Assembly: GCF_000420525.1 (NCBI RefSeq)
Contig: NZ_ATVC01000013.1
Span: 1-44,024 of the forward strand
Length of the DNA: 44,024 nt
Origin: Aquaspirillum serpens DSM 68
GTDB taxonomy: Bacteria > Pseudomonadota > Gammaproteobacteria > Burkholderiales > Aquaspirillaceae
Direction: 5' to 3'
Shown in pieces: positions 23,380-24,694 of the stretch; within the stretch, counting starts at the first letter, position 1; each line of letters starts with the position of its first letter. Both the position numbers and the translations under genes were made by a program. The notes under the pieces are model-generated. The model saw only the letters and a program-made list of their open reading frames with translations. It was not told the DNA's origin and searched no databases.

Positions 23380-23400
23380 GCCAAGCTTGATGACCCGAAA

Positions 23401-23431
23401 AACCCCGATGTCACCACATCGGGGTTTTTTT
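23401..23431 (+). terminator. Terminator of the LivK-like gene
   Basis: CCCCGATG (23403-23410) pairs with CATCGGGG (23417-23424) around a six-base loop and is followed by seven T residues. A classic intrinsic terminator. Confidence 0.93.
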
Positions 23432-23485
23432 CGCTCTCAGCTGTGGCATGATTGTCGTATCGTAAGCGTTTGCCTTGCGATGACC

Positions 23486-23639
23486 TCATCAGTTTTGATG
23501 AACGGCTGGCAACCGTAACTGCTCTACCCGTGGCGAATCCAGCCGGTAACGGCGGTGCTATTTCTGGAGGGGTTCTAGAGATAGTCGGGAAGGTGATGCC
23601 TGTTTGAGTGCATCTGTGAACACAAACAGGAAGAGAATC
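23486..23639 (+). ncRNA. Candidate structured 5' leader RNA (riboswitch- or thermometer-like)
   Basis: Between the livK terminator and the acidic repeat gene lies about 250 bases that hold four consecutive hairpins. They are TCATCA/TGATGA (23486-23501); CGGCTGG/CCAGCCG (23503-23509 with 23539-23545); an 11-pair stem CTATTTCTGGA/TCTAGAGATAG with loop GGGGT (23558-23584); and CCTGTTTG/CAAACAGG (23599-23606 with 23623-23630). The last stem contains the AGG of the AGGAAGAG ribosome site for the small upstream frame at 23640, so folding would hide it. I could not match it to a known riboswitch consensus. Function as a regulatory leader is inference. Confidence 0.45.
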
Positions 23640-23684
23640 ATGCGCCCATGCGTGTACTTTCTTGAGAGCGGTGAATCCCTATGA
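23640..23684 (+). CDS. 14-residue upstream leader peptide
   Basis: A 15-codon frame (MRPCVYFLESGESL) preceded by AGGAAGAG at good spacing. Its stop overlaps the start of the acidic repeat protein in ATGA (23681-23684). The downstream gene has only a weak ribosome site of its own, so the small frame probably delivers ribosomes to it by coupling. No codon run typical of amino acid attenuators is seen. Real translation is unproven. Confidence 0.45.
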   Translation: MRPCVYFLESGESL

Positions 23685-24694
23685 AGCCCAATACCGAGGC
23701 CTTTTATCAAAAAGCGGCAATTGCCCTGACTGAAAAACTGAATGCACTTTTACTTGAACTAGACCCAAACACCTCTCCACGCCAACCCAACGACTATGAT
23801 GCGGATGCTGACTTGCTTGATGTCAGTTCTGCTGATTTGGGGAAACAACCGGCGGCACCAAGCCATGCTTGGAAGCTGTGTTTTGTGTTGGTGCAGAAAA
23901 TCAAAGACGTGCGCGCAGAGATCGATCAGGCGAAATTGGCCGAAAACGATGCTGTGTTATTGTTAGAGGAACATCTGAGCGCGGTGTTAGATTCGCAAGA
24001 AGTGGCCGCTTTGGCTTCGCTGTTGTCCGGTGCGGCAGTCAAACCCTCTGCAACACCGGTAGAAGAGATGGCCAGTTTGGTATCAGAAACCCCTGACGTA
24101 GTGGAAGCGCCTGCTGTAGAAGACAACGCCATGGTTGAGACTGAGGCAGTGGCAGCGGCGGAAGTAGAGACTGAAACCGAGTCGGTGGCAAGTGATGATT
24201 TGCCAGTAGAAGCGGCGGCAGACGAGGTGATTGCCCCAGAATTTCCGGTAGCGTTTGACAATGAAGATGCCGTTGTTGCCACCGACAGCGCCTTGTTAGA
24301 TTCGCAAGAAGTGGCCGCGATGTTGCAAGCGGCTGGCGAAATGCCAACGCCTGCCCCTGAAACCTCGGCAGTAGAAGCCTTTTTAGCGGCAGCGGATGAA
24401 ATTACCGCTACTGCACAAGCATCGGCGGCACCAGTCGCTGATACGGCTGACGAAGCGTTCCCTGATTTAGGTTTGGCTCAGCAAGAGCCGGTTGCCGTTG
24501 AAGCGACCCCAGAAGAAATTGCTGCTTTAGTACAGGCAGAAGGTTTGGTGAATGCGAAACCAGTCAGTGAATTTGAAGCCGATTTACAAGAAGACATGAC
24601 CGCTATGGCGGCTGTTGCGACTACAGAAAGTGATCCAACTGTAGCAGGGGAATCGGTAGATTTAGAATTCACCGCTGCTGCACCACGCGTGTAA
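23681..24694 (+). CDS. Acidic Ala/Glu-rich protein with repeated SQEVAAL-type motifs
   Basis: Not a family I recognise. A 337-residue very acidic soluble protein with no signal peptide or membrane helix. Residues 1-120 look helical and ordered; the rest is low-complexity Ala/Glu/Val/Pro. The motif LDSQEVAAL/M occurs at 103-111 and 206-214, and looser forms occur at 125-134 (TPVEEMASLV) and 276-284 (TPEEIAALV). At DNA level 23 bases are identical between 23987-24009 and 24296-24318. The motif resembles the SQxEIxALL peptide at the N-terminus of flagellar FliM, which binds CheY-P; a docking role is speculation. It is coupled to the upstream peptide. Confidence 0.7.
   Translation: MKPNTEAFYQKAAIALTEKLNALLLELDPNTSPRQPNDYDADADLLDVSSADLGKQPAAPSHAWKLCFVLVQKIKDVRAEIDQAKLAENDAVLLLEEHLSAVLDSQEVAALASLLSGAAVKPSATPVEEMASLVSETPDVVEAPAVEDNAMVETEAVAAAEVETETESVASDDLPVEAAADEVIAPEFPVAFDNEDAVVATDSALLDSQEVAAMLQAAGEMPTPAPETSAVEAFLAAADEITATAQASAAPVADTADEAFPDLGLAQQEPVAVEATPEEIAALVQAEGLVNAKPVSEFEADLQEDMTAMAAVATTESDPTVAGESVDLEFTAAAPRV
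23987..24009 (+). repeat. Exact 23-base internal repeat, copy 1
   Basis: Identical to 24296-24318, in frame inside the acidic protein gene, encoding LDSQEVAA. Exact identity at third codon positions suggests recent duplication or gene conversion, not only selection on the peptide. Confidence 0.85.
24296..24318 (+). repeat. Exact 23-base internal repeat, copy 2
   Basis: Second copy of the repeat at 23987-24009, 309 bases (103 codons) downstream and in the same reading frame. Confidence 0.85.

Follow-up and report, generated by a model that had tools for sequence, protein, structure and literature searches.

A gene of Aquaspirillum serpens DSM 68 for an acidic 337-aa protein is preceded by a hairpin-rich stretch in which a ribosome site seems to be buried. 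What kind of RNA is this, and why should it stand before such a gene? The preliminary description of the locus had taken it for a lone leader motif built from four successive stems, with no match to the riboswitch consensus sequences considered there. We addressed the question in the whole 44,024-nucleotide stretch under analysis (the window) and by comparison with other genomes.

A conserved fold in five copies

With the leader as query, a search of the genome that holds the window (G000; 2.61 Mb in 119 contigs, rated 99.97% complete) returned four further copies with 77-83% identity over about 100 nt. The covariance model R1 found five copies at 164-186 bits, the next match scoring 14.8; 16-nt matches in L006-L008 were rejected as further copies of the element (E 0.58). 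The element is about 175 nt long, and all five copies are sense-oriented, 5-9 nt before an ATG. The genes behind them are the window gene, rpe, a PepSY_2 gene (which precedes what looks like a response regulator gene), a DUF465 gene and hpf. The copies are 64-74% identical to one another, and their upstream flanks are mutually unlike. The element is rare: R1 matched in 4 of 369 genomes sampled from the class and R2 in 7 of 399 sampled from the order, A. serpens included each time, and a pattern search found no viral contigs or phage records carrying it.

The features of the window locus are these:

23396-23433, + strand: terminator-like hairpin with T-run at the end of the upstream gene (from the sequence; Rfam matches here are at chance level)
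23498-23671, + strand: solitary omegaRNA/reRNA-like element, resembling the right end of an IS607-type TnpB element without tnpA and tnpB (R1 164.1 bits, R2 150.4 bits)
23505-23669, + strand: closing stem, GCT 23505-23507 with AGC 23667-23669 (97.8% of cells paired in 30 copies, little variation)
23508-23523, + strand: conserved hairpin GGCA/TGCT (double changes G-C to C-G and A-U to C-G)
23527-23589, + strand: conserved helix CCCG 23527-23530 with CGGG 23586-23589, enclosing two central hairpins
23537-23556, + strand: GNRA-capped hairpin CCG-GNAA-CGG (helix 5; 2 of 7 pairs doubly changed)
23557-23585, + strand: long hairpin with arms 23557-23569 and 23573-23585, the third stem of the preliminary description (helix 6; 8 of 13 pairs doubly changed)
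23599-23630, + strand: stem CCTGTT/AACAGG, the fourth stem of that description, pairing the AGG of the ribosome site (helix 7)
23628-23635, + strand: embedded Shine-Dalgarno AGGAAGAG (from the sequence)
23633-23663, + strand: terminal hairpin, terminator-like, with AGAAT/CTTTC-side pairing and T-run, containing ATG 23640 (helix 8)
23640-23684, + strand: 14-codon frame MRPCVYFLESGESL, its TGA overlapping the gene start (ATGA)
23672-23680, + strand: spacer between element and gene
23681-24694, + strand: downstream gene for the 337-aa acidic protein, no family above cut-off

The 337-aa product is Ala/Glu-rich and repeats the motif LDSQEVAA; it matches no Pfam or NCBIfam family above cut-off.

We aligned 30 copies to R1 (alignment A3, from which L038 and L039, both weak, and L049, with no R1 match, were left out). 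In this alignment, which leans to the model, 48 pairs in eight helices are paired in 97.1% of cells. Doubly changed cells number 96, against 27.4 in shuffles (0/500 as high), and doubly changed pairs 19, against 10.5 (0/500); RNAalifold run on A3 gave the same pairs. Ten solo copies (those without tnpB, described below), taken alone, have 95.8% of cells paired and 36 doubly changed cells, against 13.2 (0/500). Helix 7 is 99.4% paired, with 2 of its 6 pairs doubly changed. The CCCG/CGGG helix is paired in 100% of cells and nearly invariant, and thus lends little covariation support of its own.

All four stems of the preliminary description are in the sequence, including CATCAGTTTTGATG at 23488-23501, CGGCTGG/CCAGCCG, and CCTGTTTG at 23599-23606 with CAAACAGG at 23623-23630. 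The covariation search that it had proposed places the third and fourth in the conserved fold, where they covary across the 30 copies; the first (23488-23501) lies upstream of the conserved element, and the second occurs only in the window copy and competes with the conserved fold. That set, half of it conserved, was also incomplete: four conserved helices (the closing stem, GGCA/TGCT, CCCG/CGGG and the CCG-GNAA-CGG hairpin) and the terminal hairpin, where the small frame's start codon is buried, had been overlooked. The 14-codon frame itself, from ATG 23640 to TGA 23684 with its stop overlapping the gene ATG at 23681, was correctly described. The hidden ribosome site is borne out as well, with its AGG in the covarying stem, the next AAGAG partly in the following stem and the ATG within that following stem. 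Because the stem 23599-23630 contains the AGG and the last hairpin contains ATG 23640, concealment of the ribosome site is a trait conserved throughout the family. Within AGGAAGAG, AGG has a predicted unpaired probability of 0-0.03, and the remaining positions 0.46-0.53.

By folding energy alone, the region does not stand out: 23478-23690 has a z of -1.16 (24/200 shuffles fold as well) and 23436-23640 a z of -1.83 (8/200 as good). In the window copy, the minimum-energy fold contains just 25 of 46 consensus pairs, and the predicted energies favour a partly different fold. As the terminator-like hairpin at 23396-23433 ends the upstream gene, the promoter of the leader should lie between it and about 23500. 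This hairpin is absent from the output of the consensus scan, which also gave no sigma-70-like promoter; over six regions in all, such scans found none on the sense strand. A -10-like hexamer (at least 4/6) stands 3-8 nt before the 5' border in 5 of 15 solos, against a background of 15%, which is weak and suggestive only.

The RNA at the 3' end of tnpB

On plasmid record NZ_AP018720 of Sulfuricystis multivorans (G025), a tnpB gene has this RNA as its 3' end, and the RNA also lies at a tnpB 3' end in G265 and G788. A single pattern scan of named genomes placed it there in 19 of 23 loci. In the other four, L049 has no R1 match, L050 carries the RNA without recognisable tnpB, the contig of L064 starts at the RNA, and L065 is a solo. 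A tnpB, whole or broken, lies upstream of the RNA in 16 genomes besides A. serpens, among them Tepidiphilus, Thiorhodospira, Giesbergeria, Competibacteraceae and Accumulibacter and also Chloroflexus, Anaerolineae, Myxococcota and Phycisphaerae. At 13 loci a full-length tnpB match ends in the RNA (L010, L037, L051, L052, L054, L055, L058, L059, L060, L062, L066, L069 and L141).

Upstream of tnpB we observed an IS607-type TnpA, a serine recombinase that is complete at some loci and truncated at others: that of L054 matches NF033518 at 200.7 bits (cut-off 110), L051, L055 and L066 have the N-terminal part only, and L010 and L037 have too little upstream sequence or no TnpA seen. The G025 TnpB matches guided_TnpB at 290.7 bits and also shows similarity, short of the cut-offs, to the TnpB models of IS200 and IS607. 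A conserved frame of about 60-70 residues lies between tnpA and tnpB (L010 130-333, L058 322-525, L069 1323-1535, L060 4263-4442); the L010 example, ..GVDNPDDQEVRAICVETGEVVWRSTDEEYE, has no Pfam or NCBIfam match, and the frame is possibly an accessory protein of the elements.

The omegaRNAs (reRNAs) of IS200/IS605 and IS607 elements are structured, overlap the coding end of tnpB and run into the right end, followed by a guide from the flank; this guide role is established for other TnpBs. The RNA described here is like them in position and covariation, and differs in that the five A. serpens copies are without tnpB and tnpA and are fused to host start codons. From its sequence relationships, including its likeness to tnpB 3' ends and its being one of five copies in the genome, the window RNA is very probably a solitary omegaRNA of an IS607-type TnpB. 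The name is taken from place and structure, its binding to TnpB being putative. Instead of a lone motif, the leader thus belongs to a family that has five copies in this genome and forms the tnpB 3' end elsewhere. If a TnpB used the window RNA, the spacer at 23672-23680 and the start of the gene would be the guide part.

In agreement with the preliminary description, no riboswitch model of Rfam 15 matches, and at gathering level the Rfam scan of the window gave nothing but a tRNA. At E<=10, the matches in 23380-23700 fall on the upstream terminator region, with no RAGATH-18 among them; at E<=1, L010, L037, L002, L005 and L066 gave solely an SRP RNA, again without RAGATH-18. An undescribed class of riboswitch or thermosensor, resembling transposon ends by chance, would account for a dispersed, structured leader before unrelated genes, with a buried ribosome site and a terminator-like last hairpin (the latter recognized on the sense strand in 3/5 A. 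serpens copies, and at 23639-23654 inside the terminal hairpin of the window copy by the consensus scan). It is largely refuted by the same RNA being the tnpB 3' end in more than 20 loci. Moreover, solos retain likeness to the tnpB reading frame, and the genes behind the RNA (rpe, hpf, PepSY, DUF465, mreC, bchF) have no common pathway, so that we regard this explanation as highly improbable.

What remains of tnpB at the A. serpens copies is recognisable only over the last ~50 codons, from about 'RLAT' (at the closing stem) on; L003 and L004 have a few weakly similar codons ahead of this border. A search of about 1.5 kb upstream of each of the five copies revealed neither tnpA nor the small accessory frame nor a left end. 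The window copy, with no tnpA or left end in the 1562 nt upstream, is not a complete IS607 element. The genome has no cognate TnpB, the closest match showing 35% identity, and no further strong R1 match. As candidates for a dedicated TnpB, 37 zinc-ribbon domain matches were rejected, none being near the relevant TnpB clade. Many of these 37 lie at contig ends; other TnpB element families have expanded in this genome and probably broke up its assembly.

Could the solos still act in trans, or move? They might be non-autonomous passengers or free guides served by the TnpA or TnpB of another element, their place before genes being a by-product of insertion at AGGAG (see below). The right spacer would then be the guide; three solos of genome G633 have common sequence upstream of their border, like a small mobile unit, and the extra segment at rpe matches the omegaRNA almost exactly. 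Against this stand the near-complete genome without a cognate TnpB or any other strong R1 match, and the upstream flanks, mutually unlike and without a left end. On balance, we find this explanation unlikely. In Ktedonobacter there are standalone IscB omegaRNAs with no nuclease gene beside them, which presumably serve a nuclease encoded elsewhere. The A. serpens RNAs resemble these in lacking an adjoining nuclease gene, but no cognate nuclease was found in the genome.

Solitary copies and the retention of their fold

Solos with a border like that in A. serpens occur in Thiorhodospira sibirica (L065, L132), Tepidiphilus succinatimandens (L133, L134) and G633 (L100, L104), as well as in G773 (L138, contig-broken) and, with a few more codons, in G053 (L011). 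Likeness between solo copies becomes clear at about the closing stem (23505 in the window). No tnpA, small frame or left end was detected within 2 kb of L065, L132, L133 or L134; in the positive controls L054 and L066, the same test detected tnpA and the left end, and missed the small frame there too. In a tree, the A. serpens copies join the two T. sibirica solos in a single long-branched clade (0.929), which includes none of the sampled tnpB-bearing copies. Those of Tepidiphilus fall beside the tnpB copies of their own genome; thus, solos arose more than once. The common upstream sequence of the G633 solos L100, L104 and L106 contains ..CAGGTAAG.. (two also have ..CCTGG..), as if these were small mobile units of their own. 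In the same genome, L095 is a tnpB with an internal deletion.

Relative to the tnpB-linked consensus, the A. serpens copies carry 17-23 changes in paired columns and only 2-3 broken pairs, against 9-13 expected when the same changes are placed randomly (0/500 and 0/1000 runs as low). The decaying solo L011 has 9 broken pairs, with 9.8 expected; it breaks pairs at the random rate, so the test is able to detect decay. Truncated or broken copies also fall below random (broken/expected: L050 4/9.3, L096 4/12.9, L103 4/7.1, L137 8/11.8). As these keep their pairs too, low breakage alone is no proof of selection after tnpB loss, nor does the test tell when the constraint acted. In solos, divergence is greatest at third codon positions of the former tnpB reading frame (0.28 vs 0.16-0.17), which means that part of the divergence may predate the loss of tnpB. 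The intact consensus omitted L011 and L050 in the breakage test, L069 as well in the codon-position test, and L050, L095, L103 and L137 in the later breakage test. Two loci cut by contig edges were still classified: L064, with the RNA at the start of its contig, as intact, and L136, whose contig stops at the RNA, as a solo; L138, probably the other half of L136, looks like a solo.

No orthologous solo leader was found in five other family members. Among 47 genomes of the order of T. sibirica, matches occur in T. sibirica and G788 alone, the G788 copy being tnpB-linked. In a sister species, what looked like the uninserted counterpart of the L066 site proved to be a spurious match.

These results bear on the main competing explanation, in which the five copies are decaying IS607-type right ends; only their last ~60 nt, with the ribosome site, would matter, and the rest would not yet have decayed. 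The third-codon excess in solos, the pairs kept by truncated copies, the lack of proof of retention from orthologous copies, the decaying or partial copies in other genomes (L011, L098, L101, L108) and the several genomes with many copies, as expected of mobile elements, all favour it. However, all five A. serpens copies have far fewer broken pairs than expected, and the RNA is kept from about the closing stem on while tnpA, tnpB and the left end are lost. Their low mutual identity, just 64-74%, further argues that they are not recent. We therefore give decay a substantial but lesser share of belief, and lean, on comparative sequence evidence, towards a solitary omegaRNA that has turned into the 5' leader of a host gene and whose fold may be kept for that gene's sake. 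Whether selection for leader function is what keeps the fold appears to us evenly balanced.

Apparent insertion behind ribosome sites and a proposed route of translation

How would such an RNA come to lie before a start codon? In 27 of 48 copies, an ATG with at least 60 open codons lies 0-12 nt past the RNA 3' end. At random positions in the same loci, such an ATG was found in 2476 of 38400 cases (6.45%); the copies are not independent, so a binomial figure is a guide only. The 48-copy set omits seven duplicate or 3'-incomplete loci, L141 (which has no such ATG) and some partial matches.

AGGAG is the bacterial Shine-Dalgarno sequence. Among seven readable left junctions, five have GGAG (L054, L055, L060, L062, L066) and two GGAA (L051, L069). 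The elements appear to insert directly behind AGGAG, that is, behind a Shine-Dalgarno, which puts their right end a few bases before the start codon. At hpf, all five family relatives have AGGAG, 6-7 nt and ATG; in A. serpens, the RNA replaces everything up to AGGAG, and a similar spacer is kept (AAGGAC or AAAGGAC). At rpe, the four readable of five relatives have a TAAAAT box, a short leader (ending in TTTTGCC in 3/4) and ATG, with no AGGAG at the site. The A. serpens rpe has TAGAAT, 21 nt, the RNA, TTTGC and ATG, and the segment that is extra there corresponds almost exactly to the omegaRNA. The native 5' leader of rpe thus seems to have the RNA within it, at a site that the AGGAG rule leaves unexplained.

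Homology, repeats, covariation, the position of start codons, the AGGAG before hpf in relatives and the absence of a close TnpB are direct observations. From them we infer that the ~175-nt fold may now be kept for the sake of the host gene.

In the available part of PMC11061315, AGGAG is the target-adjacent motif of IS607 TnpBs with RAGATH-18 reRNAs in 18/22 strains, and 64% (10,258/16,029) of RAGATH-18 RNAs adjoin an IS607 TnpB, while about a third do not. Our RNA is like the RAGATH-18 reRNA described there in its IS607-type TnpA and TnpB and in AGGAG (here, at left junctions and the hpf site). It differs in overlapping the tnpB end, whereas that reRNA lies outside coding sequence, and in matching no Rfam RAGATH-18 model; the same part of that paper describes no host-gene leaders.

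We next consider translation. With few exceptions, the last hairpin of a copy contains a stretch resembling a ribosome site, AGGAA..A, and behind it GTG (ATG in the window); at the position of ATG 23640, most other copies have GTG. The frame from this embedded start ends in a TGA that overlaps the gene ATG both in the window and at hpf. The frame overlaps the start of the PepSY gene by a few bases, and before rpe and DUF465 it does not end at the gene start. A Shine-Dalgarno before the gene ATG is no stronger in solos than in tnpB-linked copies.

In T. sibirica (L065 2610-3509), a solo lies between mreB and mreC. The mreC frame matches TIGR00219 at 175.5 bits, aligned from residue 19, and its upstream in-frame starts (GTG, TTG, GTG) are all inside the RNA. 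Thus, mreC seems to begin inside the RNA, which favours the idea that the embedded ribosome site and start can work. The second T. sibirica solo (L132 2027-2189) stands 10 nt before bchF, and a TATACT ends 6 nt before its 5' border. In T. succinatimandens (L133 2056-2240), a 135-codon frame has as in-frame starts the GTGs in the RNA or a TTG just past it.

Our model suggests that the omegaRNA of an IS607-type element, stripped of tnpA and tnpB, would form the 5' leader of a host gene, the folded RNA being the 5' part of the mRNA. The first start codon, ATG 23640, and the ribosome site AGGAAGAG would both lie within the last two stems. Ribosomes entering at AGGAAGAG would translate the short frame and then start again on the gene, at the overlapping ATGA; alternatively, they would read straight into the gene, as in T. 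sibirica mreC. Folding would set the level of translation and perhaps the lifetime of the mRNA too. Coupling through the RNA's own ribosome site is most likely the mechanism, and it is possible that, as the preliminary description had proposed, opening the last stem would turn on both the small frame and the gene.

More tentatively, freed TnpB guide scaffolds may have been taken over repeatedly as leaders of housekeeping genes (rpe, hpf, mreC, bchF and others). Because the target motif is a Shine-Dalgarno, insertions would become leaders, and the fold would replace the lost ribosome site with its own, structurally controlled one. A search of open-licence PMC papers (title and start of abstract) found no description of TnpB-less omegaRNAs as host-gene leaders, which is not proof of absence.

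TnpB guide RNAs are partners of nucleases or, in TldR systems, of DNA-binding repressors. TldRs are nuclease-dead TnpB relatives that control promoters with guide RNAs; as with the RNA here, parts of a TnpB system have been taken over for gene control, but in TldR systems protein and guide RNA act jointly on DNA, whereas here the RNA alone remains, within the mRNA. The five A. serpens copies before genes suggest that ordinary mRNAs can acquire such RNAs as constituent parts. If this is true, an omegaRNA without TnpB as part of a host mRNA would be a third fate for TnpB guide RNAs. It would likewise account for the ability of an RNA-guided transposon to persist behind ribosome sites while the gene stays alive, as the transposon brings its own ribosome site. 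The covariance model of the element permits a wider search for such leaders.
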